Source of the DNA: a virus
Virus record (IMG/VR): IMGVR_UViG_3300020195_000870
Coordinates: 1-34,031 of that record
Direction: 5' to 3' (one strand)
Length of the DNA stretch: 34,031 nucleotides
Made by a program: the position numbers and the translations under genes. The notes beneath the pieces are model-generated. The model saw only the letters and a list, made by a program, of their open reading frames with translations. It searched no databases and had not been told where the DNA came from. Shown here one piece after another: positions 1,441 through 23,700 of this stretch. How positions within the stretch are numbered: position 1 is the first letter of the stretch; each line of letters begins with the position of its first letter.

Positions 1441-1451
1441 GGAGGTGAGAT

Positions 1452-1731: not shown

Positions 1732-1737
1732 ACCTTA

Positions 1738-1799: not shown

Positions 1800-1809
1800 G
1801 TGGACTTTT

Positions 1810-3690: not shown

Positions 3691-3694
3691 GTAA

Positions 3695-4232: not shown

Positions 4233-4243
4233 AAGTATTGTAA

Positions 4244-4328
4244 GTGGGGCTAACTGGGCAGCTAGCTCCACCTACAAGCCTTTGAGCTTGCGTATCATCG
4301 CACTACGACACAGGTGTGGGTTAGGTGG
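4244..4328 (+). promoter_or_regulatory. Structured leader with two alternative stems before scaffold gene
   Basis: A stem of nine pairs with one G-U (4244-4252 with 4263-4271), a CAAGC/GCTTG hairpin (4275-4290), and a 7-nt match CCACCTA (4268-4274) to TAGGTGG (4322-4328). The long-range stem shares CCAC with the first hairpin, so the two exclude each other. The right arm covers the GTG codons at 4325 and 4328. This is seen by pairing only; function is not shown. Confidence 0.4.
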
Positions 4329-4351
4329 TGTTTAAAATAAACGACGAAAAT

Positions 4352-5110
4352 ATGGCGTTAAACGCAGAGGTTGAGACTGAAAACAACCTTGATACTACGC
4401 CGGTACCAGAACAAGAACAGGTTGAGGATGGCGTGCAGTCTGAAGAGATATCTAACGACGAAACAACTGAAACAACAGGAGAAGCCCCTAAAAAAGGCTT
4501 TCAAGCGAGGGTGCAGGAGCTCAATCAGAAAGCTAGAACAGCCGAAGAGAGAGCCAACACATTAGAAGCAAAACTTGCGGAACTTACAAGACCGGTAGGT
4601 CTTCCGGAACAAACAGTTCCGAACTTTAATCCGCAAGAGCCGATTATTGCACCTGGCGAGGAGATTGATGGAGAAGAACTCAATCGAAGGATTGCAGAAC
4701 GAGACCAGAGATTACTTCAACAGGCAGACAGCCGTTCCGAATTACGGAATCGACAGAATGAAGCAATAAATCGCATCAATAGCGAATCTAGTGAGGTTGT
4801 CGGGAAATATCCCGAACTCAATCCGGACTCCGAGTCCTTTAACAAGGATCTCTCCGACATTGTTACTGAAGCAACGGAAGCGTATGTAAAAGCGAGTCCG
4901 TATACAGCATCGGTCAAGACGTTTGTGTCAAAACTGATGAAAGCCTCACAAGGCGCAGTAGCTAGAGAGGTTGGACAGGCTACCGAGAATATTGCCAAGC
5001 AAGTATCGCAAGCCGCTCTAAGACCGACCTCGATTCGCAAACCCGAGAAAGCAGCAGCGGAGAAATCCATTGCTGAGCTGGAAGCAGAATTAGGAATTGT
5101 TAACAGCTAA
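4352..5110 (+). CDS. Scaffolding / head assembly protein
   Basis: A 252-aa protein directly upstream of the major capsid gene, the usual place of a scaffold. The first 55 residues are highly acidic (ENNLDTTPVPEQEQVEDGVQ). Residues about 60-95 (FQARVQELNQKARTAEERANTLEAKLAEL) form a clear coiled coil. A charged helical region follows, and the end is basic then acidic (RPTSIRKPEKAAAEKSIAELEAELG), resembling a capsid-binding helix. ATG 4352 is chosen; in-frame GTG codons at 4325 and 4328 would add 8-9 residues. Neither start has a convincing Shine-Dalgarno. Confidence 0.8.
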   Translation: MALNAEVETENNLDTTPVPEQEQVEDGVQSEEISNDETTETTGEAPKKGFQARVQELNQKARTAEERANTLEAKLAELTRPVGLPEQTVPNFNPQEPIIAPGEEIDGEELNRRIAERDQRLLQQADSRSELRNRQNEAINRINSESSEVVGKYPELNPDSESFNKDLSDIVTEATEAYVKASPYTASVKTFVSKLMKASQGAVAREVGQATENIAKQVSQAALRPTSIRKPEKAAAEKSIAELEAELGIVNS

Positions 5111-5115
5111 CAATT
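5095..5115 (+). repeat. Perfect 8-nt inverted repeat at scaffold/capsid junction
   Basis: AATTGTTA, five bases, TAACAATT. The scaffold stop codon lies in the right arm. The stem is AT-rich without a T-run, so it is not a classical terminator. It may affect mRNA processing or stability and so the scaffold-to-capsid ratio, which is an inference. Confidence 0.5.
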
Positions 5116-5141
5116 GGCGGGAAGTGAGGTGAAATTTTAAT

Positions 5142-6110
5142 ATGGCAGTAATAGGAACAGGTGGAAACGGCGGAGATGCCAACACCAGTACCGCGTCAGC
5201 TGGTGGTAACGTACTTTCACAAGAAGTACAAACCTACTATGAGAAAGTCTTTCTTGATCGTGCAAAATACGATCAGGTTATGAAAGAGGGAGGACAAATC
5301 CGAACTCACGCAACTGGTCAAGGTCGAACTGTTAATTTCACACGATACAATCCACTGGCTATTTTGACTGATCCTTTGGGAGAAGCTTCAAATCCAGTCA
5401 GTTGTCCAATTAATGCTTCAACTATCTCGATGACACTTTCTGAGTTCGGTTTAACCACCACTCACGGAAAACTTTTGACTGTAACGTCAATCGATTCTGG
5501 AATGAAAGAGAAAATCGAATTAGTTGGGCAGAACATGGGCGAAACTTTGGATGCCTTGGTTCGCAGAGAATTACAAAATGGTACTGCTTTCTACGGAAAT
5601 AATAAAACACAACATAGCTTCACCGCAGGTGACACGCTAGATGCATGTGATATCCGTTTGATGGTGCAACAGCTTGAACTAAAAAAGGCTATGGCATACA
5701 AAGACGGTTTATTTATCGGTAAGACAGACCCATACTCTAAGTACAACTTACTCGGAGATACGACTTGGATTAACTCTAAGACGTACTCAGATGTTAAGGA
5801 TTTGTACAACGGAGAAATGGGCGAACTTTACCAAGTCCGATGGCTCTTAAACAAGAATGTTTCTTCAGGAACTGAAGTAGCATCTACAGCCGCATCAACA
5901 GTTACTAGGTTCTACACCTACGTACACGGCTCAAACTCGTTTGGAGTTTACGATTTGGCTACAGATCAACCAAAGTTGTACATTCTACCGAATCAGGTGG
6001 ACTCAAATTCACCAGCAGGTCGAGTGTCCTTTATTACATGGGCAGGATCATTTGCAACCAAAATACTCAATCCAGATTGGGTTTTGGCCGCACGATTCGC
6101 AGCAGTGTAA
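5142..6110 (+). CDS. Major capsid protein, N4 gp56-like
   Basis: A 322-aa shell protein. The N-terminal segment ending in VQTYYEKVFLDRAKYDQVMKEGG, followed by GQGRTVNFTRYNPLA, is the signature of the N4-gp56 family of HK97-fold major capsid proteins. FGLTTTHGKLL and MGETLDALVRRELQNG follow in the usual order, and the C-terminus WVLAARFAAV is typical. A good Shine-Dalgarno (GTGAGGTGA) precedes the ATG. Scaffold upstream and small head genes downstream agree. Codon use is A/T-leaning and even, as expected for a highly expressed virion gene. Confidence 0.92.
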   Translation: MAVIGTGGNGGDANTSTASAGGNVLSQEVQTYYEKVFLDRAKYDQVMKEGGQIRTHATGQGRTVNFTRYNPLAILTDPLGEASNPVSCPINASTISMTLSEFGLTTTHGKLLTVTSIDSGMKEKIELVGQNMGETLDALVRRELQNGTAFYGNNKTQHSFTAGDTLDACDIRLMVQQLELKKAMAYKDGLFIGKTDPYSKYNLLGDTTWINSKTYSDVKDLYNGEMGELYQVRWLLNKNVSSGTEVASTAASTVTRFYTYVHGSNSFGVYDLATDQPKLYILPNQVDSNSPAGRVSFITWAGSFATKILNPDWVLAARFAAV

Positions 6111-6856: not shown

Positions 6857-7187
6857 TCCGAATCGTCCCGCTTCCCAGAATAAGTACACAGAGCAGAACA
6901 TGGGTAACACCTCTTTTGATGAGGTCTTCGGTGTTAATACCTTTGAACCGTTAGGTTTTGATGGCAAACAACTCCAACGTTTCCGTGCTGATGCAACAGC
7001 TATCAAAATCACGACCGTGGGTGCCGTTACTTACCTAGCGGTTGCTGCACCCGGAACTAGCCAAAGCACCCCACTTTGGCAATGCCGCAAGATCGACGAG
7101 ACTACCGGCTTTGAACTGACTTTCGCTGATGGCGACGCTAACTTCAACAATATAGCCACTGACTTAACCAGCCTCACGTACCAATGA
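6849..7187 (+). CDS. Putative virion decoration or accessory protein
   Basis: A 112-aa protein with a strong Shine-Dalgarno (AAGGAGAT at 6838-6845) before ATG 6849; it overlaps the previous gene by 8 nt. A short polar N-terminus is followed by beta-rich sequence (ATAIKITTVGAVTYLAVAAPGTS, then FELTFADGDANFNNI). The size, beta character and place after the capsid fit a decoration protein, but no family is recognised. It is the last gene before the sugar island and overlaps it by ATGA. Confidence 0.65.
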   Translation: MADPNRPASQNKYTEQNMGNTSFDEVFGVNTFEPLGFDGKQLQRFRADATAIKITTVGAVTYLAVAAPGTSQSTPLWQCRKIDETTGFELTFADGDANFNNIATDLTSLTYQ

Positions 7188-7951
7188 CTACAGCAATAAT
7201 TGGCAGTGAAGGATGGGTTGGAAAATCCATGGTGAAACTGTTCCCTGATTCCGTTTGCTATGACACTAATGGCAAGACTGCATCTGACCAAGAGAAAGTT
7301 AACAAGTGTGACGTAGCTTTTATTTGTGTACCAACTCCTAATCCAAAAAATAAACTCTTAGATACCTCAATTGTCGAATCTTGTATCAGATGGTGTGAAT
7401 GCCCACTGATCGTGGTTCGATCTACTATCAACCCTGGCGACTGTGACCGATGGAGTGGTGAATTTGGTAAACGAATTGTATTTCAACCTGAATACTTAGG
7501 AGAAACTCCCAGCCATCCACTGATCGATCCAAGGACTAGACCATTCCTGGTTATAGGTGGAGAACGAGAAGATCGTCGTAAGCTGATTGAGCTGTATACC
7601 ACTGTCTATAACGCAAATGTGACTATTCGTCAGGTATCTAGTTTAGAGGCTGAAGTTATTAAACTCTCTGAGAATAGAGCAATTGCATTTAAAGTGGCCG
7701 AGTGCCAAGAGCTGTATGATGCCTGCGAAACCGCTGGAATCGATTACTACGCCATTCGCGATGCGGTATACGGGGATGATCCACGGTTCAACCTTTATTG
7801 GACCTTCATCTTTCCGGGTAAGCGTGGGATGAATTCTAAGTGTATACCCAAGGACGTTTACGCATGGGCTGCTTGGGCTGAATCGCTTGGTCACGAGCCC
7901 GATATCACCAACGGCATCTTAGAGAGGAATAAGCAATGGTTAGCGCAGTAA
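7184..7951 (+). CDS. Nucleotide-sugar dehydrogenase, UDP-glucose/GDP-mannose type, short form
   Basis: Members of this family oxidise C6 of a nucleotide sugar to a uronic acid using NAD. Visible motifs in order: GSEGWVG (7-13, dinucleotide loop), CVPTP (48-52), RSTINPG (79-85), PEYLGE (102-107), VIKLSEN (158-164, catalytic Lys/Asn region) and SKCIPKD (218-224) with the nucleophile at Cys220. At 255 aa it is far shorter than the usual 400-450 aa; the C-terminal sugar-nucleotide-binding domain is missing. The catalytic residues are kept, so it may be active on an unusual substrate or need a partner. The start overlaps the upstream stop (ATGA). Confidence 0.85.
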   Translation: MTTAIIGSEGWVGKSMVKLFPDSVCYDTNGKTASDQEKVNKCDVAFICVPTPNPKNKLLDTSIVESCIRWCECPLIVVRSTINPGDCDRWSGEFGKRIVFQPEYLGETPSHPLIDPRTRPFLVIGGEREDRRKLIELYTTVYNANVTIRQVSSLEAEVIKLSENRAIAFKVAECQELYDACETAGIDYYAIRDAVYGDDPRFNLYWTFIFPGKRGMNSKCIPKDVYAWAAWAESLGHEPDITNGILERNKQWLAQ

Positions 7952-8811
7952 TTCCATCCCGTAATGAGCCCTTTTTGCAGCAGACGATAGACGAGTTATT
8001 GTTAAGAGCCACCGGTGAGATCGAGATCGTTGTGGTGCTTGATGGCTATTGGCCTGATCCGAAACTAAAAGACGATCCACGGGTGGTTTTGGTTCATAGA
8101 GGAGTATCCAGAGGGATGAGAGCAGCAATTAATGCAGGTGTGGCAGTGGCCAAAGGTGACTATATTTTAAAAATAGATGCACACTGTATGGTGGGTGATG
8201 GCTTTGATCAAATCTTAGCTGATAATTGCGAAGATGATTGGGTGGTTGTTCCGACACGTCACCGCTTAGATCCGTATAACTGGGTTGTCAAAGACGATGG
8301 CCGAGCACCAATTAACTATATGTACCTATCATATCCAAATGATCCTAACGATTGGGGTGGTGCTGGTCTACATGGTCGGATTTGGGACGAGAATAATAAA
8401 TGCTCCGATCTTAAGAAGCTGGAGATTGATGACCTACTTTCTTCACAGGGATCGTGTTGGTTTATGAAGAAAACATATTTCGACTATCTAGAGTTGATGG
8501 ATGAGGAGAACTTCGGTACTTTTGCTCAGGAATTCCAAGAGATCAGCTTTAAAGCCTGGCTGTCTGGCGGCAGGGTAGTGGTGAATAAGAAGACTTGGTA
8601 CGCACATTGGCATAAGGGCAAAGATCCAGAGGGGAAGAACGTTCGGAACTATTTTATCGACACTAGAGATCTGAAAAAGGCTAATGAATATACCAATCGC
8701 TGGCTATCTGAGAAGGTTTGGCATAAGCAGATTCACGATATGAAGTGGTTAATCGAAAAGTTCTGGCCGGTTCCGGGTTGGCCGGAGGATAGGGAGCTAT
8801 GGAAGATTTAG
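7936..8811 (+). CDS. GT-A glycosyltransferase with DxH motif (GT2 / polypeptide GalNAc-transferase-like)
   Basis: A 291-aa enzyme. The N-terminus SAVIPSRNEPFLQQTIDELL and IVVVLDG (31-37) are the GT2-fold nucleotide-binding start. GVSRGMRAAINAGVAVAKGDY leads to ILKIDAHC (77-84), a DxH metal motif as in the polypeptide GalNAc-transferase group (GT27). Farther on, [33 protein letters not shown] and WYAHW follow the order of that group's acceptor region (Trp-x-x-GG ... H). It is a paralogue of the first domain of the gene at 9385. Transfer of a sugar to Ser/Thr of a protein is an inference; a plain GT2 role is the alternative. Confidence 0.82.
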   Translation: MVSAVIPSRNEPFLQQTIDELLLRATGEIEIVVVLDGYWPDPKLKDDPRVVLVHRGVSRGMRAAINAGVAVAKGDYILKIDAHCMVGDGFDQILADNCEDDWVVVPTRHRLDPYNWVVKDDGRAPINYMYLSYPNDPNDWGGAGLHGRIWDENNKCSDLKKLEIDDLLSSQGSCWFMKKTYFDYLELMDEENFGTFAQEFQEISFKAWLSGGRVVVNKKTWYAHWHKGKDPEGKNVRNYFIDTRDLKKANEYTNRWLSEKVWHKQIHDMKWLIEKFWPVPGWPEDRELWKI

Positions 8812-9401
8812 TCATCTACATTGAAGCATGTATCAACGCCCCGGGTCGCGTGGAGATCCCCGATGGTAATCGGGTAGATTTGGCTAGGTTGTTCGGCGAA
8901 CTAGGTTTCAGGACTGGAGCTGAGGTTGGCGTAGAGAAGGGCAAATACTCAGAGGTGCTATGTCAGAAGAATCCTGGAGTCAAACTCTATGCCATCGACG
9001 CTTGGCAGACATTCCCGGTCTATCGAGATCACGTCACTAATGAGGAGCTGGAATATTTTAGGGCTGAGACTGTCACAAGATTAGCTCCGTACGGCTGCAT
9101 AGTTATTAAAGGTCTGAGCACTGAAGTCGCTACTAGATTTGATGATGAATCTCTCGACTTTGTATATATCGATGGTGGGCATGACTTTGCCAATGTTGCG
9201 AGTGATCTATCTGCTTGGAACAAAAAGGTCAGACCTGGTGGGGTCGTCTCTGGTCACGATTATACCAAGAAGCCCGGATCTGGTGCGCTTAACGAAGTCG
9301 TCGAGGTAGTTGATGCTTGGATGAAGGCAAAGAATATCCATCCCTGGTTTGTACTGAAAGGAGACAGGTCTAATTCCTGGTTTTATGTCAAAACTGTTTG
9401 A
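8799..9401 (+). CDS. Class I SAM-dependent methyltransferase
   Basis: A 200-aa Rossmann-fold methyltransferase of the Methyltransf_24 type. GAEVGVEKGKYSEVL (about 40-54) is motif I, with YAIDAW just after it as the acidic motif II. DESLDFVYIDGGHDFANVASDL carries the characteristic DGGH, followed by VRPGGVVSGHDY. Members are often found in polysaccharide and glycopeptide clusters, methylating sugars or lipids. Here it is wedged with overlaps between two related glycosyltransferases, which suggests a glycan as substrate. GGAGGATAGGGAG upstream of ATG 8799 provides the ribosome site. Confidence 0.85.
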   Translation: MEDLVIYIEACINAPGRVEIPDGNRVDLARLFGELGFRTGAEVGVEKGKYSEVLCQKNPGVKLYAIDAWQTFPVYRDHVTNEELEYFRAETVTRLAPYGCIVIKGLSTEVATRFDDESLDFVYIDGGHDFANVASDLSAWNKKVRPGGVVSGHDYTKKPGSGALNEVVEVVDAWMKAKNIHPWFVLKGDRSNSWFYVKTV

Positions 9402-10944
9402 TCTCTCTATCTTAATTCCAGCACGAAACGAGATGTTTCTACAACGTACGATTGAAGATATCCTTGCACATATTGAGGGCAAAACTGAGATTATCGTTGT
9501 CTTAGATGGTCAGTGGCCAGAGCCTGGTCTACCCCAATATGACAATGTAACTATTATCTATAACGACGTTTCTATCGGGCAACGGGCAGCAACTAATCAG
9601 GCGGCTAGACTTTCAACAGCAAAGTACGTTATGAAGGTTGATGCACATTGTGCTTTTGACCAAGGCTTTGACGTTAAGATGATGTCGAAGATGCAGGATG
9701 ACTGGACAATGGTTCCAACCATGCGTAACCTGCACGTTTTTGACTGGGTCTGTGAGCAATGCGGCGATACTAGATATCAAGGACCTACTCCAACATTTTG
9801 TCTCAATTGTGATAACACTGACAAATTTAAGATGGATGTAGTTTGGATTGCCAAGCGCTCACCACAGAGCAGCTTCTTTAGATTTGACCACACTTTGCAC
9901 TTTCAATATTGGAATGACTTAGGTAAACGGGAAGAGAACAGGGGCGAGATAGCCGAAACCATGTCCATTCAAGGCTCCTGTTTTATGATGACTCGAGAGA
10001 AGTACTGGGAGTTGGATGTCTGTGATGAAGCGCATGGTAGCTGGGGACAACAGGGAGTTGAAGTGGCTTGCAAGACCTGGTTATCGGGGGGCCGAGTGGT
10101 TGTTAATAAATTAACTTGGTATGCCCACATGTTCAGGACTCAGGGTGGGGACTTTGGCTTCCCTTATCCACTATCTAATACCGAAGTGGAGAAAGCCCGC
10201 CAATACTCCCGTGATCTATTCATCGGTAACAACTGGCCAAAGGCAATCCATAATCTGCAATGGCTAATCGATAAGTTTAATCCGCCGGATTGGGTCAGTA
10301 CTAAACAGAATAAGGGCATTATTTACTACACCGACAACCAACTAAACCTCAAGATTGCTCATAAGGTCCAGAAGCAGCTTCTCACGATTGGTTTACCGAT
10401 TGTTAGCGCCTCACTCAAGCCGATGCCTCATTTTGGCCAGAATATCCATTTGCCATTAAAACGAGGCTATTTAGCTATGTTTAAGCAGATACTGGCAGCG
10501 CTAGAAGCCTCGACCGCTGAGATCATCTATTTTTGTGAACATGACGTCATCTATCACCCCTCCCACTTCGACTTTACTCCTCCCACTAAAGATAAGTTTT
10601 ATTACAACGAGAACTTTTGGAAGGTTCGAATAGAAGATGGTCATGCAGTCCATTATGACGCTAAACAAGTTAGTGGTTTGGTTGCGTATAGAGAACTATT
10701 AATAAAAGAGTATCGCAAGCGAGTGACTGATGTAGAGCGAGATGGATATGACCGACGGACCGGCTTTGAACCGGGGACTCACGACGATCGAGCTGTACGG
10801 TACTTCTCCGAACAACCAAACGTTGATATTAGACATGACCACAACTTAACCAAGAACCGTTGGTCAGAAGATCTATTTCGAAACAAACCTGTTAATTGGA
10901 TTGAAGCTGACGAAGTACCAGGCTGGGGAAGGATAACGATCTAA
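9385..10944 (+). CDS. Two-domain glycosyltransferase: DxH GT-A domain with zinc ribbon, plus second domain
   Basis: A 519-aa protein. Domain 1 (about 1-295) is a paralogue of the gene at 7936: [32 protein letters not shown] (84-89, DxH), [15 protein letters not shown], then [18 protein letters not shown] (219-236) and TWYAHMFR, close in pattern to polypeptide GalNAc-transferases. Inserted at 123-142 is CEQC-x12-CLNC, a four-cysteine zinc ribbon absent from the sister gene. Domain 2 (about 308-519) starts [20 protein letters not shown] and has [13 protein letters not shown] (380-392), which looks like another GT-A-type catalytic loop. Its start overlaps the methyltransferase and its stop overlaps the Ser-repeat gene (TAATG). 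Confidence 0.8.
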
Positions 10945-13900
10945 TGGCACGACTTTGGTCCTCAGGTTTTGAATTACAATCGGTTGTGTCCGCTGTTGAG
11001 GTCGACGTTATTTCTGGTTCACCAACCATTAGTACTGCGACCAAGCGTAGTGGTTCGGCATCATTTCGAGTTAATCCATCTGCAACAACTGCTCACGCTC
11101 GTCATGCACTTGCCGGGTCAGCGATAATTTCAACCACCCTTTTTGCTCGTTTCTATCTGTACATCACGACCTCTACCGGTGCTCTAGCTACGATTTTTAG
11201 ATTTAGTAATGGAACAACCGACAGATGTTCCATTCGTCTTAATAGTGATCGGACACTAGAACTTTGGAATTCTTCGGTTCAGCTCGGAAGCGATAGTACC
11301 GCCTTAAATACTTCTACCTGGTATTGTATTGAGGCTAAATTGATTCTCGATGGAATTGGTCTTGGTACAACCTTTGAAGGGAAAATTGATGGTACTGTTT
11401 TTGCTACCGGTACAAGCCAAAGTATCGGCTCGGTTGAAAGCATTATGCTTGGAGCCGTTACGACACAGACTTCGGACCTTTATTTTGATGATGTTGCCGT
11501 TAATGACAGTTCCGGTTCTTTTGAGAATACTTATGCTGGTGCAGGATCGATTCTTCACCTTAAACCGAATGATACGGGTGATGCTAATGAATTAGGGGCT
11601 GGAACGTCTACAAATTATAATCTTGTTGATGAGGTAACGCCAGATGATGCGACTACCCAGATTGCCACAACTTCCGATGCGGCGGCTGAAAAAGATAGTT
11701 ATAAGATCGAAGATACCCCAGCCGCTATTAATTCGGGTGACACTATCAAAGTAGTCTCGGTTGGTGGGAGATTTAAGCGATCATCAAATAATACCTCTGA
11801 TACGGTTGTATTAACGGTTAAATCTACTACTGGAGGAACAATTGAAGATAGTTCGAATATTCAACCCAATAGCAATGTCACTTGGCGTACCAATGCCAAT
11901 GCAACGCCACGGCTGTATCCACTCACTATCTATGATTTGCCTGGAGGCTCAACTACTGTTTGGACCAAAGCGGACCTAGATACTGCCGAGATTGGTTTTC
12001 GAAAAACCGTCGACTCGACTGCCGGGGTCGAAATGTCGACTATTTGGATGTTGGTGGAATATGCCGCCGCAGCAGCAGGAAGCCCCAGCGCTTCAGTAAG
12101 CCCTTCAAGCTCGATTTCAGCCTCTAGAAGTCCTAGTGCATCTGTATCACCTAGCTCAAGTGTTTCCCTGAGCCAATCCCCCAGCGCCAGCGTTAGCCTG
12201 AGTCAGTCACCATCAGCGTCAGTATCACCCTCTGCTAGTGTTAGTCCGTCATCATCGGTTAGTGCATCTCAATCACCATCAGCCTCTACATCACCATCCG
12301 CCAGCGTGTCACCTTCCATTAGTCCTTCGAGCTCTATATCACCAAGCTCGAGCTCTTCACCGAGTGTTTCACCATCAGCGTCTACATCACCCTCGGCCTC
12401 GATCTCCCCAAGCTCTAGTATTTCTGCTTCTCAATCTCCGTCTGCATCTATAAGCCCAAGTTCTTCAGTTTCACCGAGTCAGTCCCCATCCGCTTCTATA
12501 TCTCCTAGTGCATCTATATCTCCATCAAGCTCTAGTAGCGCGAGTGTGAGTCCATCAGCGTCCATTAGTCCTTCAAGTTCTTCAAGCCCATCTATATCGC
12601 CAAGCTCATCTACAAGCCCCTCTGCTAGTCGAAGTCCAAGCGCGAGTGAAAGTCCATCACAATCACCTTCCGCGTCTATAAGCCCTTCGAGCTCTATAAG
12701 TTCATCTATATCACCAAGCGCCTCAGTTTCCCCAAGCGCGAGTGTATCTCCATCCTCTTCTTCCTCAGCTAGCCAAAGTCCATCTGCAAGTCGAAGCCCT
12801 TCAGCTTCGGTATCTCCTTCAATCTCCCCGTCTGCAAGCCAAAGCCCGAGTTCATCTATATCTTCTTCTCAATCTCCGTCCGCTTCCATAAGTCCATCTT
12901 CAAGCGTAAGCCCCTCAATTTCACCAAGTGCCAGCATATCTCCATCAGCCAGCGTGTCACCTTCGGTGTCCCCATCAGCCTCGGTTTCTCCATCAAGCAG
13001 CAGCAGTTCTTCAGTTTCCCCAAGCGCCTCTGTAAGCCCCTCCGCTTCAGTTTCCCCTTCTTCAAGTATAAGTGCTAGCCAGTCCCCAAGCGCGAGTATC
13101 AGCCCTAGCGCCTCAATATCTCCATCCATCAGCCCCTCTGCTAGTCGAAGTCCAAGCGCCAGCGTTTCCCCTAGCATCTCGCCATCAGCGTCTGTTTCCC
13201 CAAGCGCGAGTATCAGCGCCTCAATTAGTCCATCAGCCAGCATCAGCCCCTCTTCTTCAGTTTCCCCGTCTTCATCTAGTAGCCCTAGTATCTCACCATC
13301 AGCGTCTGTGAGTCCGTCAGCATCCGTGTCAGCTAGTGTTAGTCCGTCAGCCAGTATTTCACCGAGTTCTAGTATAAGTTCATCTATATCCCCAAGCGCC
13401 TCAGTTTCCCCAAGCGCTTCAATTAGTCCAAGCTCGTCCTCATCCTTAAGCGTTTCCCCGAGCGCTTCCATTAGTCCTTCGGCAAGTGTGTCTCCATCGG
13501 TCTCACCTTCTGCTTCGATCAGTCCAAGTGCTAGCTCAAGCTCTTCAATCTCCCCTAGCGCATCAATCTCGCCTAGCGCATCAATATCCCCTAGCGCATC
13601 AACATCGTCCTCTATTAGTCCTAGCGCTTCAATTTCACCCTCTTCGTCATCTTCCTCGTCGAATAGTCCTTCTGCCTCTCTATCACCATCTGCGTCCATC
13701 TCTCCATCGGCTTCGGTTAGTGCATCTACATCACCATCAGCCTCTACATCACCATCCGCCAGCGCATCTTTGTCTATTTCGCCTTCGTCAAGCGTAAGTT
13801 CCTCAGTATCGCCCTCGTCTTCAGCATCTCCTTCAGTTGGCACTTCTCCTTCAGCCTCAGTTAGTCCGAGTTCTTCCGAATCGGCATCTATTTCACCAAG

Positions 13901-14144
13901 CTCAAGCTTGTCAGCTAGTGTTAGTCCCTCGGCTAGTATTTCACCCAGCTCGAGTAGCTCTCTGAGTCAATCCCCGTCTGCTAGTCGAAGTCCAAGCGCT
14001 TCTCTGAGCCCAAGCGCCAGCAGGTCTCCAAGTGCGAGTACTAGTCCAAGCCCTTCACCACCACCGGGATTCGGTTTAATCTTCATTGTTAATAGAGGCA
14101 GATTCGCTAAGTGGATCAGCAACAATAAATACTGGGAAATTTAG
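10944..14144 (+). CDS. Giant Ser-X repeat (mucin-like) protein with lectin-like N-terminus
   Basis: A 1066-aa protein. Residues about 1-200 have the character of a concanavalin/LamG jelly roll ([35 protein letters not shown]). Residues about 205-375 form a second beta-rich domain ending in [14 protein letters not shown]. From about 380 to 1040, Ser sits at almost every second position: [20 protein letters not shown] and variants, with X from P, A, S, V, I, Q, R, T, E and L. One clear slip of the pattern is at [10 protein letters not shown]. The end is [28 protein letters not shown]. It is probably a virion fibre or surface stalk, and Ser density plus neighbouring glycosyltransferases suggest heavy O-glycosylation. 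Both points are inferences. Confidence 0.8.
12080..14070 (+). repeat. Degenerate (Ser-X)n coding repeat, 6-nt base period
   Basis: About 2 kb in which Ser codons alternate with other codons. An 18-nt (six-residue, SPSASI-like) super-unit is often visible, for example three tandem near-copies around 13558-13610. Both TCN and AGY Ser codons are used freely, so the protein pattern is kept while the DNA is varied. That points to selection on the protein rather than a recent slippage expansion. Confidence 0.9.
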
Positions 14145-14173
14145 TTGACTTTCTGCTCGATTCGCTGTATAAA
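14145..14173 (+). promoter_or_regulatory. Promoter for second half of sugar island
   Basis: TTGACT (14145-14150), a 17-bp spacer and TATAAA (14168-14173), beginning at the base after the stop codon of the Ser-repeat gene. This is close to the sigma-70 consensus and is one of the best promoters in the window. Transcription would start near 14180. Confidence 0.75.
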
Positions 14174-14179
14174 CGAGTT

Positions 14180-14239
14180 GGTATCGTAGCCACATAAGTT
14201 TTGGCTATTCACCACAGATTAACGTCTGTGGTTTTTTTT
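14180..14239 (+). terminator. Hairpin pair with T-run before epimerase gene
   Basis: TAGCCA/TGGCTA (14187-14207, 9-nt loop), then CCACAGA/TCTGTGG (14212-14231) followed by eight T. The unit is about 60 nt from the predicted transcription start. A second run of seven T (14243-14249) and AGAAA lead into ATG 14256; there is no Shine-Dalgarno. Confidence 0.75.
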
Positions 14240-14255
14240 GTGCTTTTTTTAGAAA

Positions 14256-15029
14256 ATGGAGTATATTACAGGCGCATCAGGATTTTTAGGGACACATCTA
14301 ATCTCACGGTTAGCTAATCCAACCAAACTCCCTCATTCCGACATTTCTACCACCAAGATTCAACCATTCGATCGCTTCTTCTTCCTCTCGGCATATGGCA
14401 ATATGGCTTTTCATAATGAAGACAACAAAATCGTCCAGGCCAACATCACAGACTTAACATCAGTACTAGATCAGGTTGATTTTAAAAAAGGTTTTAAGTC
14501 TTTTGTTTACGTTTCCTCATCCTCAGTCAGACTCAAGCGTCAAACTATGTACTCCCACACCAAACGAGCAGCGGAAGAGATCCTTATTGGTTATATGGAA
14601 AAGCATAATGTCCCTATCTGTATTGTCCGACCATATTCAATCACTGGAGTGGGGGAGCAAAAAGAGCATCTAATACCAACCTTAATACGATCATGCATGA
14701 CTGGCGAAAATGTCAACCTAGTACCCAACCCTGTTCACGATTGGATCGATGTTGATGATGTAGCTGAGGGGATTGTTAATCTCTCAACTCATGGCGCACG
14801 AGGAATCTTCGAGTTAGGGACAGGGACTGGAGTATCTAATATTCAGGTCGTTAAGGTGGTCGAAGAAGTCACTGGTAAGAAGGCCAATATAAATATAGTA
14901 GGTCAGATGCGCGATTATGACAACGAAGATTGGATTTCAGGCAATTTTAGAGCTCGTAGCTATGGCTGGTTGCCTAAGAAGAAGTTAGCTGACTCGGTCA
15001 AAGAAATGGTGGCAGCATATGGAAATTAG
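14256..15029 (+). CDS. NAD-dependent nucleotide-sugar epimerase/dehydratase (extended SDR)
   Basis: A 257-aa extended short-chain dehydrogenase. TGASGFLG (5-12) is the NAD-binding glycine motif. VYVSSSSV (84-91) gives the catalytic Ser, and YSHTK (99-103) the Tyr-x-x-x-Lys pair. RPYSITGVGE and HDWIDVDDVAEGIVNL are usual for sugar epimerases. At 257 aa it is shorter than the common 310-340 aa; the N-terminal Rossmann part is reduced after the first helix (PTKLPHSDI region). It probably makes a modified sugar donor for the neighbouring transferases. It overlaps the transketolase gene by 11 nt. Confidence 0.87.
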   Translation: MEYITGASGFLGTHLISRLANPTKLPHSDISTTKIQPFDRFFFLSAYGNMAFHNEDNKIVQANITDLTSVLDQVDFKKGFKSFVYVSSSSVRLKRQTMYSHTKRAAEEILIGYMEKHNVPICIVRPYSITGVGEQKEHLIPTLIRSCMTGENVNLVPNPVHDWIDVDDVAEGIVNLSTHGARGIFELGTGTGVSNIQVVKVVEEVTGKKANINIVGQMRDYDNEDWISGNFRARSYGWLPKKKLADSVKEMVAAYGN

Positions 15030-15675
15030 AGACGCTTTGCGAATCAATAAACTTGAGCGACGGATCATTGATATCGCCTACAAGAAGCAGCTATCACACC
15101 TGTCTAGTTGTCTGACTGCCGTTCGATTAATCGACAACATTTACAAGATTAAAAAGGATGATGAACCCTTCGTTTTGGATAACGGTCACGCAGCACTGGC
15201 TCTATATGTTGTGTTGGAGAAGATGTATTTTAACGATGCTGAGGCACTATTTGAGAAGCATGGTGTACATCCAAACCGAGATGTGGATGACCGAATTTGG
15301 GCATCTACTGGCTCTTTGGGGCAGGGTCTACCGATTGCTGCTGGGATGGCTCTAGCCGACAGATCAAAGCCAGTTTATGTCCTAACTTCAGATGGCGCAA
15401 TGGCTGAGGGTTCTAATTGGGAAGCTCTACGTATTGCAGGTGAGCAACGACTAGAGAACTTACGAATCACGGTTAATGCTAATGGTACGGGAGCATATGG
15501 CAAGGTTGAGACTGATCTATTAGAAGCTCGCATGCAGTACTTTTATCCATCACTAGTTATCTCGACCAATATGTACAGCTATCCCGATTACCTCCAGGGG
15601 CTAGACGGTCACTATCACACCCTAACCGAAGACCAGTATCAAGATATTGTCAGGAGGTCCGATGCAACGACATGA
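15019..15675 (+). CDS. Transketolase-like protein, N-terminal (ThDP pyrophosphate) subunit
   Basis: A 218-aa protein matching the N-terminal half of split transketolases. LSSCLTAVRLIDNIYKI and LDNGHAALALYVVLE correspond to the early substrate-side segment. STGSLGQGLPIAAGMALA follows, then LTSDGAMAEGSNWEALRIA ... NANG (about 127-157), the thiamine-diphosphate/metal motif with GDG changed to SDG. Usual N-subunits are about 270 aa, so it is trimmed. It overlaps the C-subunit gene, suggesting an equimolar complex. It probably moves a two-carbon ketol unit in making an unusual sugar; the substrate is unknown. Confidence 0.85.
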   Translation: MEIRDALRINKLERRIIDIAYKKQLSHLSSCLTAVRLIDNIYKIKKDDEPFVLDNGHAALALYVVLEKMYFNDAEALFEKHGVHPNRDVDDRIWASTGSLGQGLPIAAGMALADRSKPVYVLTSDGAMAEGSNWEALRIAGEQRLENLRITVNANGTGAYGKVETDLLEARMQYFYPSLVISTNMYSYPDYLQGLDGHYHTLTEDQYQDIVRRSDATT

Positions 15676-16156
15676 GTCCCAGCGCGGATACTTCGCGCAC
15701 GCGTTATATGAATCAATGAAAGAGAACGAGGACATCTTCCTACTGGTTGGCGATCTTGGGTATAAGGTTTTTGATCAGCACTTCGAAGACTTTCCTGGTC
15801 GATGTGTTAATACTGGCGCTAGTGAACAAGCAATGATCGGCATTGCAGTCGGTTTAGCTTTAAAGGGAAAGATTCCATTTGCCTATTCAATAACCAACTT
15901 CCTACTCCGCCGACCGTACGAAACTCTCAAGCTTTATGCCGATGAAGAACAGATCGCGATTAAGTTGGTTGGTTCAGGTCGGGATAAAGATTATGCCCAC
16001 GACGGTCCCAGCCATGATGCTACCGAGGCTAAACAACTTTTAGCCACACTCCCTAATGTTAATCAGTATTGGCCAGATGAAAAAGAAGAAGTAACAGCCA
16101 TGGTTAAAGCGATGGTTGATAGTAAGAAACCCGACTTTATCTCACTAAAACGATAA
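15662..16156 (+). CDS. Transketolase-like protein, pyrimidine-domain subunit (short)
   Basis: A 164-aa partner of the upstream gene. ATG 15662 is preceded by a perfect AGGAGG (15652-15657); the TTG at 15647 lies before that site and is rejected. RGYFAHALYESMKENEDIFLLVGDLG opens the pyrimidine-binding domain. NTGASEQAMIGIAVGLAL (about 58-75) carries the Glu that activates thiamine diphosphate. Split transketolase C-subunits are usually about 300 aa because a regulatory C-terminal domain follows. Here the protein stops after the pyrimidine domain (KKPDFISLKR), giving a minimal enzyme. Confidence 0.85.
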   Translation: MQRHESQRGYFAHALYESMKENEDIFLLVGDLGYKVFDQHFEDFPGRCVNTGASEQAMIGIAVGLALKGKIPFAYSITNFLLRRPYETLKLYADEEQIAIKLVGSGRDKDYAHDGPSHDATEAKQLLATLPNVNQYWPDEKEEVTAMVKAMVDSKKPDFISLKR

Positions 16157-16168
16157 AGGAGGTGAAAT

Positions 16169-16894
16169 ATGAAAGATCAAAAAGAAAACAATAAAGAGGT
16201 TGGGCTAGGCGCGCTATTCTATCCGACTTCGGATACATTCGGCAAAGAGGTGCCTTTTGAGAGCTTGTTTATCCCTTATATCTATAAGGAAATCGAGTTT
16301 GAAGGAGTCTATATCGATATATTAAATCAACAAAAAGATATGGTCATTATGGACGTTGGCGCCAATATTGGTATCACTGTCGATCACTTCCGCAAACACG
16401 CAAAAAAGGTTTACGCACTCGAACCGTCTCCGGAGCATTTCGCCGCTTTGGCTAAGAATAAGGAGTTTAATCACTGGGATAACGTTGAGTTGTTCGAAGT
16501 AGCGCTTTCGGATCGAGTTGGAGAAACTACCCTCGCTCAGAATGATGGCAACCGCACCATGAATTCAATCATGGTAGATAATCCTCGGCCGGACGGTTCG
16601 GGGCCACGCAGCAGCCAATATGTTAACCGAGTCACGGTTAAGACTATCGACTTCGAGACGTTCTTCAAAGAGAACAATATCGATAAAGTAGATTTCGTTA
16701 AGTTTGATGTTGAAGCAGCAGACGATTTAATTCTACGTTCAGAAGGCTTTAAGAATGTGGCTGACAAGATTCAAGCAATCGAAGTCGAGTTCCACTATCC
16801 AGATTGGATGGACCTAGTTGAGTACCTGCGTTCATTAGGGTTTACCCCAAGAAGGTATGAGGCCAGCGCAATCATTGTGCTGTTTTCGAGGTGA
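16169..16894 (+). CDS. FkbM-family methyltransferase
   Basis: A 241-aa SAM-dependent methyltransferase. VIMDVGANIGITVDHFRKHA (59-78) is motif I, and VYALEPSPEHFAAL the following acidic strand. VKTIDFETFFKENNIDKVDFVKFDVEAAD is the hallmark FkbM segment (usually DxEG, here DVEA). A helix and strand (IEVEFHY) close the fold. Family members methylate hydroxyl groups on sugars and natural products. A strong Shine-Dalgarno, AAAGGAGGTGAAAT, sits before the ATG. The stop overlaps the next start as GTGA. Confidence 0.88.
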   Translation: MKDQKENNKEVGLGALFYPTSDTFGKEVPFESLFIPYIYKEIEFEGVYIDILNQQKDMVIMDVGANIGITVDHFRKHAKKVYALEPSPEHFAALAKNKEFNHWDNVELFEVALSDRVGETTLAQNDGNRTMNSIMVDNPRPDGSGPRSSQYVNRVTVKTIDFETFFKENNIDKVDFVKFDVEAADDLILRSEGFKNVADKIQAIEVEFHYPDWMDLVEYLRSLGFTPRRYEASAIIVLFSR

Positions 16895-17625
16895 AAAAAT
16901 GTTGTTTCACGGCAGTAGATGACAAACTCTTTTATCCGGAGGGAACGCACATAATGATTAACTCATTTAAGCGCTTCCATCCGGATATTGATTTGATTGT
17001 GTTTCGACAAGACACGATCGATAAGCTCTTTAAGGAAAAGAATATTAATTGGTATCAGGCTAAGCCTTACCTAGCTGAGTTGTTAATGGATGATTACGAT
17101 TTGGTGGTCAATATGGATGCGGATCATGTAATCACAGGTCGAATGACTGAGGTCTTTGATAACGTCGATTATGAGGTTGGTTTGCCTTGGAACTTTAATG
17201 ATTACGAGAACGCTAGCTTTGAGAACATCACGGAGAAGATGTATTTGCAAGCAGGGATGGTAGCTTCGACTAGTAAGGAATTTTGGTTAAAGTGGCAGAT
17301 TATGAATAGAGAAGCGATGGAATACTTAAGAAAAGAAAACGATATTGTGAATCTGGTCATCTATAACTTGATGCCTGAGTTAAAGCTGAAGATCTTCGAT
17401 AAGGAAAAAGACTATTACGGCTGTAAAGCACTAGGTCGAGAGCCCGAGTTCTATATCGAGGATGACAAACTAATGTGTCGAAATGAACAGGTCAAAGCCT
17501 ATCACTTTGCCCGTGGTGGACTATTCCCTAAATTAAACTTCGACACGATGCCACTGGTTGATCCGGTAAAAAATTGGTTGAAAAACCTTAGCTATGGTCA
17601 AAGCATAAAGGTGGTAGGGCTATGA
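16891..17625 (+). CDS. GT-A glycosyltransferase (GT8/nucleotide-diphospho-sugar type)
   Basis: A 244-aa protein starting at GTG 16891 in a GTGA overlap. The N-terminus CCFTAVDDKLF and MINSFKRFHPDIDLIVF resemble the opening of GT8-like enzymes. YDLVVNMDADHV (69-80) gives the metal-binding DxD (Asp76, Asp78). LQAGMVASTSKEFWLKWQ and the late CRNEQVKAYHFARGGLFPKL fit the acceptor and second metal-ligand regions. It probably adds a sugar to the glycan built by the cluster. Family assignment is approximate. Confidence 0.75.
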   Translation: MKKCCFTAVDDKLFYPEGTHIMINSFKRFHPDIDLIVFRQDTIDKLFKEKNINWYQAKPYLAELLMDDYDLVVNMDADHVITGRMTEVFDNVDYEVGLPWNFNDYENASFENITEKMYLQAGMVASTSKEFWLKWQIMNREAMEYLRKENDIVNLVIYNLMPELKLKIFDKEKDYYGCKALGREPEFYIEDDKLMCRNEQVKAYHFARGGLFPKLNFDTMPLVDPVKNWLKNLSYGQSIKVVGL

Positions 17626-18398
17626 GCCACAAACCATACACCATCTATGCTCCTGACTTCCAAGTCACCTCTGGTGGTATCCGCGTCATGTGGGGTCTCT
17701 ACGGTGCTTTATTAGCTAAAGGTCAGATTGCCTATATTAATGCGATTACTCGCGGTATAGACTCAGTCGCTATTTACCCCGAGATTGCTCACGGTAATCC
17801 ACTCGAAGGAACAAAAGTTGTGCGCTACATTTTAAATAAACCAGGGGTAATGGGTAGAGGCACCCCCGGGCGGAGTTTTGAGGCTGGACCAACTGACTTT
17901 GATCCGACGGATAGTCTGTATTATTTCTCGAAGCTATTTAGTGATGGCTCAGAAGCGAACAATTATATGTTCTTGCCTATTCTTGATACACATCTATTTA
18001 AAGATCAGGGTAGAACTCGCGATAAGATCGCTTTTTTTGTGGGTAAGGGTGAGGATACTAAGGCTCATCCACAGGGTTCAGTTCTAATTGATAGGGGGTT
18101 TGCTCAGGATCAGCAAGCGTTGGCAGACTTGCTAAACGAGTGCAAGGTCCTGTACTGCTATGACCCTGTGACTGCTATGACCGAGATTGCTCGACTCTGT
18201 GGTTGCAGGGTCGTAATGATAAATCCTGTTTATTCCAAAGAGGCTTGGTCGCAGTACGAGGCAGGTATGAATGGTATCTCATGGGGTGTAGATGAAGGAA
18301 TAGAGCTCGATGCGGAGGTATTCGCTGCTCACTATGCACGGATGAAAGTGCATTTTGATGAATGTTTGGACCAGTTTATCGAGGAGACCCAACGATGA
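17622..18398 (+). CDS. Putative GT-B glycosyltransferase
   Basis: A 258-aa protein in an ATGA overlap with the previous gene. YTIYAPDFQVTSGGIRVMWGLYGALLAKG looks like the N-terminal Rossmann strand and glycine loop of GT-B enzymes. KIAFFVGKGEDTK, VLYCYDPVTAMTEIARLCGCRVVMINP and the late helical region resemble the C-terminal nucleotide-sugar domain. The segment LNECKVLYCYDPVTAMTEIARLCG corresponds to the donor-site helix. It is shorter than most GT-B enzymes (350+ aa), so it may be a reduced form. The substrate is not predictable. Confidence 0.68.
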   Translation: MSHKPYTIYAPDFQVTSGGIRVMWGLYGALLAKGQIAYINAITRGIDSVAIYPEIAHGNPLEGTKVVRYILNKPGVMGRGTPGRSFEAGPTDFDPTDSLYYFSKLFSDGSEANNYMFLPILDTHLFKDQGRTRDKIAFFVGKGEDTKAHPQGSVLIDRGFAQDQQALADLLNECKVLYCYDPVTAMTEIARLCGCRVVMINPVYSKEAWSQYEAGMNGISWGVDEGIELDAEVFAAHYARMKVHFDECLDQFIEETQR

Positions 18399-18428
18399 GT
18401 AATTCGAAGATCTGATGGCAATACTGAC

Positions 18429-19520
18429 ATGAAAACAATAAAAGTCTTTGTTTTACCATCACATCAGACCAAAGAGCGCACCTCTGGAGTAGATTTTGCC
18501 CGAATTATCCAACCGATGAAGCATTTAGATGGATATACAGACGGAGAAGTAACTTTTAAGGTCGATTTATTCGATATTCACAGTACAAAGTCGTTGGATT
18601 GGTTACAAGTTGCCAAAAAATATGACATCATCTATCTAAACTACATTAATGACCCTTGGGGATATGCGGCAATGGGCGCGATGGCCCGTAAACACGGCGC
18701 CAAACTGGTTTTTGATATCGATGATAGCCTCTGGAACGTCAAAGATGACAACCCAGCCCACGGCGTATACCACAAGGGTAGCGAGGCGATTGGGAATTTT
18801 ACTAGTATCTGTAACGATGTTGATTATATGACCACGACTAGTGATTACCTCAAGCACGTTATTATGAATAACACCAAGAAGAAAGCGACTCAGATTAAAG
18901 TATTTCCAAATTATGTTGATCTAGATCTCTACAAGTATCGCGCACCCTTTGAGAAGAACTCAGAGATCACCTTAATGCACTTCGGCTCAACGACTCACCA
19001 AAACGACTTATCGGACGATGAGTTCAAAAAGGGTATCGACCGTATATTTTCTGAGTATCCGAACATTAAGTTAAAGATGGTTGGGGCTTTTTTACCTAAG
19101 TTCAAGACTCGTTGGGGCCAGCGATACCAGAACGCCTATGGCCATAGTGATATTTATAGATGGATTAGCGACAAATTCCCTGAGTTTATGGCCGAAGCCG
19201 ATATTTTGGTTGTCCCATTAACTGATGACATCTATAACCGCTGCAAATCATCGATTAAGTTCGTAGAGTCAGCCTCAGCTAAGATCCCGGGCGTATGGCA
19301 GGATATTCGTCAGTACCAAGAGGTGATTGAGCCTGGTAAGAACGGCTATTTAGCTAAAGACGCCAAAGACTGGTACAACGGCATTAAGGCTTTGATAGAT
19401 GACGCCGAGCACCGCAAGAGTGTGGGCGAGGCGGCACTTAAGACGGTAAAAGATAAATGGACAATTCAAGCTCATGTTAAGGATTATGCACAGTTCTTTA
19501 AAGATATACTCCTTCCTTAA
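18429..19520 (+). CDS. GT4-family glycosyltransferase (GT-B)
   Basis: A 363-aa protein of normal GT4 length. The N-domain has VFVLPSHQTKERTSGVDFARIIQPM and YDIIYLNYINDPWG. KLVFDIDDSLWNVKDDN is the DIDD segment seen in many phage and capsule GT4 enzymes. The C-domain begins near ITLMHFGSTTHQNDL. FMAEADILVVPLTDDIYNRCKSSIKFVESAS carries the donor-binding Lys/Glu region (EX7E-like position). GKNGYLAKDAKDWYNGIKALIDD closes the fold. It is the last gene of the island; a short unexplained gap (18399-18428) precedes it. Confidence 0.85.
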   Translation: MKTIKVFVLPSHQTKERTSGVDFARIIQPMKHLDGYTDGEVTFKVDLFDIHSTKSLDWLQVAKKYDIIYLNYINDPWGYAAMGAMARKHGAKLVFDIDDSLWNVKDDNPAHGVYHKGSEAIGNFTSICNDVDYMTTTSDYLKHVIMNNTKKKATQIKVFPNYVDLDLYKYRAPFEKNSEITLMHFGSTTHQNDLSDDEFKKGIDRIFSEYPNIKLKMVGAFLPKFKTRWGQRYQNAYGHSDIYRWISDKFPEFMAEADILVVPLTDDIYNRCKSSIKFVESASAKIPGVWQDIRQYQEVIEPGKNGYLAKDAKDWYNGIKALIDDAEHRKSVGEAALKTVKDKWTIQAHVKDYAQFFKDILLP

Positions 19521-20761: not shown

Positions 20762-23700
20762 ATGGCAAACTTATTAAGTCTAGCTGGAAAAGTAAAAGAT
20801 AACCTCTTCAACAAAGTTGACCAAAACTTTGGCTTTAATAATGGCCGTTGGAACCCCGTAGCGCAAGTAAAATCAGTTTATAACGCCACTCCACAGGTAA
20901 AGCAGCAGTATCGACAACAAATTGATCAGATGACCCCAAAGTTCGATTTTACGAACACCGGTTGGACCCCTTATCAAACTCCTCAATACAATTCCGTCGC
21001 ATATAAAGCGTTGGATATTTTTTCTAAGCTTCAACCAACCGCCGGATCGATTGTTAATGAAACCGTTAACTCAACGGCAGGATCACCCTTTGGTTTAGCG
21101 AAATTCCCGTCGGCAGGCAACACACAGGAAGCACTGGGTGATTTTGCCCAATTCGCACAAGGCCCATTGAACTACGCAGGAATGAGATATGCCCCAGCTC
21201 CAATAGTTAAATCTGGTAAAGGGGCTGCGGGTATGCTAAAAGCCGGTGTTCAAGGATTTGGCAAGGCAGCTCCATGGGGCGCAGCCTCAGGTGCATTATC
21301 TGGTTTACAATCAGGTCAAACAATGAGCCTGGGCGATCAGATTAAAGAAGCTGCTAAACAGTCAGCGATATCGGGTGTGGTCGCTGGAGGTACAGGAGGA
21401 TTATTAGGGGTTGTTTCTAATTTGCCCAAAGCCGGTATTGAAGCTATCGCTCGAAGGCTCAGACCAAATGCGAAGTCTGAAGAAATTACTCTGATGGCAC
21501 GTAACTATATAAAAGATAGGACGACTGGCAAGTTCATGAAGAACCGGGCCCGATGGGCAGGGGGAGTCGCTCCTTTAGATCAGGCCAAGTTAGATAAGGG
21601 TCTGTGGCCAACTAAGTCGGTTCCGAAGATCAATGCAGAGATTGATGAGTATATAAAAAATCGAATTCCTCAACCAGGACTCACGATAAAATACGTAAAT
21701 AAGACAGGATCGAAGTTATCAAAAGGAACAGCACAGCCAAACCAGTCACCCAAAGGAGCCCTTGAATATAATCAGGGACAGGCTGGCCAAGTTCCTTTTG
21801 TTGACGAAAGTATCCCCGGATCATCCACACTAAAAACATCAGGTTCATTGCGAAATGATACCACAAGCATACTTAACGGTAGTCAGCTAAAAGACAAGAA
21901 ATTAGTGGCAAGAATTAAGGGTAACGAGAAGTACCCTGATGATGCACGACAGATGCTATCCGGTACTTACATTCCAAAGAGCAACGCTGAAACAATAGCA
22001 GTTGCAAAGAAGGCAGTTCGGTTAGATCCTGCAACAGCGGAACAACGAGCTTTAAACCCTCAAAATGCGGTGGATCAAGCGATTGGAGCGGAGTTGTTTA
22101 ATTACCACATGGATGCTGGGGATATCGCAAAGGCCAACGAGATTATTAATGCTACTTCTGGTACTAATGAAGGACAAATGATTCAGATATTGTCTGAGTA
22201 CGATAAAACGACGCCTCAAGGAGCTATCAAATTCGCCAATAATGCAGTTAAATCTTATAACGAAACGCACAAAAACAAGCCAGTTGTTCTAAGTGAGGGT
22301 AAGATTCAAGCATTATATGACCAGGCTAAAAAGATTCAAGATATGGCTCAAGGTCGTGAACGCAATCTTGCTTCATACAAATTAATCACAACAGTAAATG
22401 ATCTGATTCCATCGAGCATAGTCGACAAAGCGCTTACGGTGTGGAAAGCTGGTTTACTGACTTCACTGCGCACTCACGAGCGTAATCTAATCGGGAATAG
22501 TCTTCACTTTGGCGCTGAAACTGCTAAAGATATTCCGGCATCTATCGCGGATAAAGTGATGGGCTTAAGAACAGGTAAGCGATCGTTGACGTTCAATGTC
22601 CAAGGCGTAGGATCGGGATTAAAAAAGGGGTTGGTAGCCAGTAAAGATATGATTACCAAAGGTTTCGATCCCGAAGAGTCTATAACTAAATTTGACCAAA
22701 AGCACATCACTTGGAACGATAATCCGGTGGAGAAGTTCTTGAAGGGTGCTACTAACTCGGTATTCAGAACTTTAGGGGCAGAAGATAAACCGTTCTATCA
22801 TGCAGCTTTTTCTAGATCTATTAACGACCAGGCTAAAGTGGTAGCAATCAATGTCGGTAAAAACGGCGACAAAGGCTTTATTAAGAAGCTAATCTCAGAA
22901 CCCACAGATGACATGATCAAGCTAGCGGGTGACGAAGCGAATATGGCAACATTCCACAATAAAAATATCTTTTCCGACATTACGACTGGGATCAAAAATG
23001 CAGCTCGGAATCCAAAATATGGCAAAGCAGCTGAAGTGGGTAAGTTTGCGACTGAGATGACGATGCCGTTTACTGGTGTGCCGTCATCGATTGCCGGTCA
23101 GTTGGTCTCCTACTCGCCGATAGGTCTAGCTAAAGGAGCAGCTAAAGTAGGTTATGTGATTGCAAAGAATGTCCCCGAACTACAACGTCAGGCAGCTCAA
23201 GAACTGGGTCGTGGACTATTAGGTGCCGGACTTTACGGACTAGGAGCATATCTAATGAATAAAGGACTAATGACTGGTCAACCAAAAGATCAGGAAGAAG
23301 CAGAGTTGTGGAGACTACAGAATAAGCAAGCTAACTCGGTATTAATCGATGGTAAATGGCGTCAAATCGGTTCGATTGGCCCTGAGAACTTAATTATATT
23401 GGCCGGGGCTAAAGCCCAGAATGAACTATCTAAAGGGGAGGATGCATCGTTGGGAAACTATTTGGCCAGTACAGGCAAAGATTTTATGAGTCAAACGTTC
23501 CTTCAAGGAGTTCAGCAACCGCTGGCTGCCCTAAATGATCCTACTAGATATGGTTCTAGCTATCTAGGGAATCTGGCTTCTTCAGTAATACCTAATATCG
23601 TAAAAGATACGGCCAAATCGCTCGATCCTTATGTCCGAGAAAACAACCAGTTTACGGACTATCTTACTAACTCACTCCCCGGACTTAGGAACCAGAACAC

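Follow-up and report, generated by a model that had tools for sequence, protein, structure and literature searches.

Mucin-type O-glycosylation in animals is initiated by the polypeptide N-acetylgalactosamine (GalNAc) transferases of family GT27. In phages, glycosylation of the virion is, to our knowledge, known from few cultured examples. The mycobacteriophages are among them: their glycosyltransferases have been proposed to modify structural proteins of the phage itself, with glycans reported at the C-terminal ends of the capsid and tail-tube subunits (Freeman et al. 2023, as cited in PMC12619734). The serine-rich repeat glycoproteins (SRRPs) of Gram-positive bacteria, such as Fap1, have a dedicated glycosyltransferase cluster that builds the glycan on serine, and for Fap1 co-expression in E. 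coli has been used (PMC5207161). The window analysed here is a 34,031-base IMG/VR virus record. It encodes a protein with a long alternating-serine repeat (the Ser-repeat protein, SRR) next to two glycosyltransferases, GT2a and GT2b, whose closest relatives among solved structures are polypeptide GalNAc-transferases. A pairing of a mucin-like phage structural protein and enzymes of this kind, spread across many uncultured phages, was not found in the literature or the phage records searched, and a literature search on the repeat motif and on phage mucins returned nothing relevant.

The genes belong to an island of 12 open reading frames (ORFs), all on the + strand, in which neighbours mostly overlap by 1-29 bp; 11 encode enzymes or putative enzymes and one the Ser-rich protein. 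The original prediction of a glycan-gene island at 7184-19520 agrees exactly with the ORF boundaries. Its placement between head and tail genes also holds, with the capsid gene (5142) upstream and the adaptor gene (24779) and a tail-fibre-like gene (27575) downstream. It had been described as one island; two modules were found instead, module 1 at 7184-14144 and module 2 at 14256-19520. The main gap within the island (14144-14256, ~110 bp) separates them and contains a strong terminator-like hairpin. Module 1 is likely to make a mucin-like virion glycoprotein, in which GT2a and GT2b would O-glycosylate SRR and the product would be built into the particle as a sugar-covered fibre. The features of module 1 and the hairpin are as follows.

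7184-7951, +, nucleotide-sugar dehydrogenase of 255 amino acids (aa) (Pfam PF00984/PF03721, 2e-13; phrog_9148, UDP-glucose dehydrogenase)
7936-8811, +, glycosyltransferase GT2a (PF00535; polypeptide-GalNAc-transferase-like profile)
8799-9401, +, Methyltransf_24 methyltransferase (PF13578), optional in the cassette
9385-10944, +, glycosyltransferase GT2b (PF00535; two domains)
10944-14144, +, SRR, 1066 aa, the acceptor candidate
14211-14232, +, terminator-like hairpin of 9 pairs, ACCACAGATTAACGTCTGTGGT, then TTTTTTT (consensus scan only)

Polypeptide-glycosyltransferase-like enzymes of module 1

Polypeptide GalNAc-transferases already ranked first among PDB chains when a GT2b profile built from three sequences was used. 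Deeper profiles searched against all PDB chains gave the same family as the best match of GT2b (E 8.7e-12) and a GalNAc-transferase chain as the best match of GT2a (E 2.3e-12). An AlphaFold2 model of GT2b, computed from 54 natural sequences, had a mean predicted local distance difference test (pLDDT) score of 93.5. Fold comparison of this model with Foldseek and VIA-align placed polypeptide GalNAc-transferases in all of the top 29 rows (Z 24.0-27.7), with ~264 of some 305 residues aligned at a root-mean-square deviation of 2.4-3.1. The next entry outside the family had a Z of 20.5 and the others were lower.

The conserved residues were consistent with this assignment. D86-x-H88, W-G and H248-x-F250-R251 are invariant in 54 GT2b sequences, and D81-x-H83 and H224 in 36 GT2a sequences. 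Alignment of GT2b with GalNAc-T1 showed that the D-x-H metal motif and the later metal-ligand His in H-x-F-R are shared. GT27 is thus the family closest to GT2a and GT2b in profile and fold, with D-x-H, W-G and H-x-F-R kept. The N-terminal GalNAc-transferase-like domain of GT2b covers residues ~3-308. It is followed by a second, catalytic-looking domain with an invariant E385-x-D387, apparently in place of the C-terminal ricin-type lectin domain of GT27 enzymes; no Pfam match to a lectin domain was obtained in GT2b. As judged from sequence and model, GT2a and GT2b look like protein O-glycosyltransferases.

GalT1 (5hea), which belongs to the Fap1 Ser-repeat system of streptococci, was also among the PDB matches of the GT2a and GT2b profiles. 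The likeness to the SRRP systems extends to gene content, since a Ser-rich repeat protein has dedicated glycosyltransferase genes alongside it. In contrast to those systems, the cassette is encoded among phage structural genes. Neither of the SRRP hallmarks, a signal peptide and a cell-wall anchor, was recognised in SRR, which by hydropathy has no signal peptide or membrane-type segment. Accessory Sec genes had no match among the island ORFs, and Pfam and NCBIfam scans of island proteins gave none to the initiating pair Gtf1/Gtf2 (GtfA/GtfB).

GT2a and GT2b gave no tblastn match in 50,697 GenBank phage records, GT2b gave none in plasmids, and PHROGs has no family for either. The best viral matches to GT2b in BFVD were partial, near 20% identity. 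A near-identity search with the whole island likewise found no match in GenBank phages.

Of the two accompanying enzymes, the 7184 dehydrogenase has the NAD-binding and central domains and a catalytic-type motif, N-S-K-C-I-P-K-D. The C-terminal domain usual in nucleotide-sugar dehydrogenases is missing from it and from the relatives seen (242-258 aa), with K-C-I-P-K-D retained. The 8799 methyltransferase bears on another role of phage glycosyltransferases, the modification of DNA bases (cited in PMC12619734), because one of its PHROG labels is 'DNA methyltransferase'. Such a role is very improbable for this island. Pfam assigns the 8799 enzyme to Methyltransf_24, a base-modifying enzyme was not seen in the island, the nearest folds of the enzymes act on polypeptides, and the cassette tracks the Ser-repeat gene.

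The serine-repeat protein and its pairing with GT2a and GT2b

SRR is composed of a beta-rich N-terminal part (1-375), a (Ser-x)n repeat (~376-1035) and a short C-terminal tail. Over the 660 aa of the repeat, Ser occupies 99.1% of alternate positions. All six Ser codons are in use, 37% of them AGY, and Tandem Repeats Finder detected only short DNA repeats in the gene; the pattern is therefore kept at the protein level. The Ser-rich protein that had been noticed amid the island is real, as its ORF recurs in relatives and a chance ORF is excluded. Its Ser/Pro-rich, mucin-like repeat is the probable acceptor and a further likeness to the GT27 system.

The N-terminal part matches phrog_14065 (3.4e-72). 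Over its full length it is 31-36% identical to a protein of the cultured Streptomyces phages Hiyaa, Galactica, Keanu and Spocter. In Hiyaa and Galactica (Hiyaavirus) the homologous gene falls between those for the major capsid protein and the head-to-tail adaptor, not far from a methyltransferase gene; GT2a and GT2b had no match in those records. Other Ser-repeat proteins begin with domains whose relatives are lectin or fibre-slot proteins of the tail region, the window's 28216-29016 product among them. In one relative (L119, 18802-19599) a counterpart of the window's 27575 tail-fibre-like protein starts with a Ser-Pro repeat, and therefore the repeat can join directly onto a fibre-type protein. 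The predicted structure of the SRR N-terminus had a pLDDT of 43. Taken as sequence relationships, these matches favour SRR as a virion protein.

A check that had been put forward was whether related phages carry the Ser-repeat gene and the enzymes together. It was run in both directions, and module 1 passed. At least 125 GT2b relatives were found among IMG/VR viral contigs, and 80 were kept for locus counts. A Ser-repeat ORF was present at 67 of these loci, in 51 of them 1-3 genes downstream of GT2b, where permutation gave a mean of 15 and a maximum of 26, and an 8799-type methyltransferase at 56. As circularity was to be avoided, a DNA pattern that describes only the repeat was also run over the collection, the enzymes being left unused. 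The resulting 80 fragments comprised 27 with a true Ser-repeat ORF and 53 chance matches. GT2a or GT2b was encoded in 18/27 of the former and 0/53 of the latter (Fisher 1e-11, only indicative because the loci are not all independent lineages).

The same association was seen within the viral group of the window, for which the capsid protein and the 18429 enzyme served to find relatives and 20 contigs were tabulated. GT2a and GT2b were present in 6/6 contigs with a Ser-repeat ORF, while the 14/14 contigs without one also lacked GT2a, GT2b, the dehydrogenase and the 8799 methyltransferase. On the capsid tree the Ser-repeat/GT2 pair switches state ~6 times and is as scattered as shuffled labels. 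The pair is absent even from G002, which at 80% capsid identity is the nearest relative of the window. When module 1 comes and goes, the dehydrogenase and the methyltransferase often accompany GT2a and GT2b. The backbones that carry the cassette vary, some loci adjoining tape-measure and head-tail adaptor genes and others having the window's capsid type.

A cassette this clearly mobile could link two unrelated functions, with the Ser repeat as a flexible, unmodified stalk and the enzymes glycosylating some other target. Phage fibre stalks are often of low complexity, and in the Hiyaavirus relative the stalk is a repeat without a Ser run. This explanation is nevertheless quite unlikely, as the Ser period of two is nearly exceptionless with mixed codons, the enzymes resemble polypeptide O-glycosyltransferases specifically, and the association holds across many diverged loci and in the scan that was blind to the enzymes.

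Module 2 and the genes around the island

Module 2 encodes seven proteins.

14256-15029, +, NAD-dependent sugar epimerase/dehydratase (PF01370, 3e-21; phrog_540)
15019-15675, +, transketolase, thiamine-diphosphate-binding half (PF00456, 1e-12), kept across the viral group
15647-16156, +, transketolase, pyrimidine-binding half (PF02779, 3e-20)
16169-16894, +, FkbM-family methyltransferase (PF05050, 3e-16; TIGR01444 above cut-off)
16891-17625, +, putative GT-A glycosyltransferase, with an invariant N74-x-D76-x-D78 in the alignment
17622-18398, +, possible glycosyltransferase, a protein kept within the viral group
18429-19520, +, GT1/GT4-type glycosyltransferase (PF13692, 3e-11; phrog_7162, 3e-28), group-wide

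The dehydrogenase, epimerase, split transketolase and two methyltransferases named in the original prediction are all Pfam-supported. Its count of five glycosyltransferases comes to three that are shown (7936, 9385 and 18429) and two assigned by inference (16891 and 17622), because the latter two had no Pfam, PHROG, NCBIfam or significant PDB match. The 16891 protein had a weak PDB hit (E 0.077) to a galactosyltransferase in the DxD region. The transketolase halves and the 16891 and 17622 proteins have no PHROG family.

The module 2 genes occupy the same capsid-to-tail slot across the viral group, with or without the Ser-repeat gene. A view of all the island genes as working for the Ser-repeat protein is unsupported and was rejected, since the seven genes stay where the Ser-repeat gene and the GT2 enzymes are absent. 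Of the refuting pattern named with the original prediction, enzymes without the Ser-repeat gene and next to host cell-wall genes, module 2 shows the first half; in the relatives of the viral group none of its genes was seen beside host cell-wall genes. The constancy of module 2 suggests a constant virion component as its target. It would be a separate, group-wide glycan pathway that probably acts on a component other than SRR.

The slot can also hold other genes. In L042, a distant relative (46% capsid identity), the region 8910-13644 carries a different set of sugar genes, namely epimerase-like, GDSL-hydrolase-like, GT2-like and GT1 genes. In relatives, extra small genes resembling HNH-type homing endonucleases occur within or beside the island and the capsid genes (G002 37718-39909 and 1-5351 of the oriented contig; L041 7257-7865).

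The genes around the island that could be classified are listed below.

1-1071, terminase, upstream of the island
5142, major capsid protein, upstream of the island (phrog_1357, 3e-40)
20762-24757, probable internal virion protein of 1331 aa
24779, SU10-type adaptor, downstream of the island (Pfam E 3e-5, slightly below the Pfam cut-off)
27575-28333, tail-fibre-like gene, downstream of the island
28216-29016, Laminin_G_3/concanavalin-type protein, its listed start overlapping 27575-28333 by 118 bp

No tape-measure or tail-tube gene was recognised in the window, so that a podovirus fits, short of proof. The C-terminus of the 1331-aa protein carries a tandem repeat (24569-24637, 30-bp unit) rich in Lys, Ala, Ser and Phe. 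The real start of 28216-29016 is probably an ATG ~39 codons in (MPNTNSLSLNG). A 61-aa protein encoded at 33146-33331 resembles an excisionase-type DNA-binding domain, a possible hint of lysogeny.

A probable virion glycoprotein or possible host-surface modification

Some information on hosts came from bacterial contigs. Two capsid relatives were found in contigs of metagenome-assembled genomes (MAGs). In addition, L114, another phage that carries the cassette, matches L278 at 100% identity. L278 is a contig of a genome from the same phylum as one of the MAGs, and genomes of that phylum are mostly 0.5-1.2 Mb in size. Some of the phages may accordingly have Patescibacteria-like hosts, as a lead only, given that binning can err. 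Four copies of the cassette (L277, L279, L280 and L281) lie on contigs of small-genome bacteria. The L280 copy is found alongside kinase, isomerase, phosphatase and nucleotidyltransferase-like genes resembling a heptose-nucleotide pathway, and the L279 copy is downstream of tRNA-Gly, tRNA-Pro and UvrD/KsgA-like genes.

These bacterial copies, with one behind tRNA and UvrD/KsgA-like genes, would also fit enzymes that remodel the host surface for receptor masking, superinfection exclusion or host adhesion, with the Ser-rich protein as an adhesin delivered by the phage to that surface. In Patescibacteriota phages, lectin-type genes and O-antigen sugar genes have been interpreted as serving host adhesion (PMC12911398). 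We regard this as unlikely for the present island. Unlike O-antigen conversion sets, it encodes no membrane flippase or membrane-bound glycosyltransferase, and no polymerase; hydropathy indicated no membrane segment in any island enzyme (highest 19-residue value 1.33). By hydropathy SRR, too, has no signal peptide or membrane segment, and the N-termini of Ser-repeat proteins are related to proteins of phage structural regions. Moreover, the island sits inside the structural block, in a capsid-to-tail slot that is conserved across the viral group.

A glycan on a virion protein is the best reading because the module 1 enzymes resemble polypeptide glycosyltransferases and the SRR N-terminus is of virion type. 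Of the original proposal that the set glycosylates the virion, this part stands for module 1 and SRR, and the service of the whole set to the Ser-repeat protein does not. Soluble GT2a and GT2b would move sugar from a nucleotide-sugar onto the repeat serines of SRR, in the cytoplasm of the infected cell and before assembly. The 7184 dehydrogenase would supply an oxidised nucleotide sugar, and the 8799 methyltransferase would cap the glycan. Glycosylated SRR would then be incorporated close to the head-tail region of the particle by way of its N-terminal part, as a stiff, hydrated, sugar-covered fibre that may serve in adhesion or shielding. Glycosyltransferase genes inside a structural module are a likeness to known cases of phage virion glycosylation. 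In contrast to the mycobacteriophages, a dedicated Ser-repeat acceptor here travels with different enzymes.

Several observations weigh against a mucin-like virion glycoprotein. Both the glycan and the virion side are deduced here from sequence evidence. The GT-A/GT2 background is wide, and identity to GT27 enzymes is ~20%. The column after W-G-G that holds Glu in GT27 is occupied by Gln in 43, Met in 9 and other residues in 2 of the 54 GT2b sequences. This Glu contacts the sugar in GalNAc-T2; since it is replaced by Gln or Met in nearly all phage enzymes, the donor of GT2a and GT2b may not be GalNAc. The missing Glu of W-G-G-E-N is also the reason why they were kept out of GT27. The Hiyaavirus homologue lacks the Ser repeat, its repeat part being rich in Ala, Thr and His, and its label in Hiyaa and Galactica, 'minor tail protein', is an annotation and not an experiment. 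In the fragments at hand, 13/80 GT2b loci have no Ser-repeat ORF. Only two independent presence/absence contrasts fall on well-supported branches of the capsid tree, so a tree-based sign test alone is not significant. Finally, the copies on bacterial contigs keep a cellular role possible.

The recurrence of the pair in dozens of uncultured phages makes it probable that some phages cover their particles with a brush of sugars resembling a mucin. We are evenly divided on the broader proposition that many uncultured phages, with several tail-type backbones, share a mobile cassette with which the phage makes a true mucin, their own GalNAc-transferase-like enzymes O-glycosylating an alternating-Ser fibre. 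If it is true, mucin-type O-glycosylation is carried by bacterial viruses. The results point to a widespread environmental cassette in which protein-glycosylating enzymes accompany a mucin-like acceptor of their own. Phage sugar genes, usually interpreted as auxiliary genes for the host surface, are thereby given an alternative reading. They offer a testable enzyme-substrate pair and raise the question of how the phage enzymes are related to those that start mucin O-glycosylation in animals.

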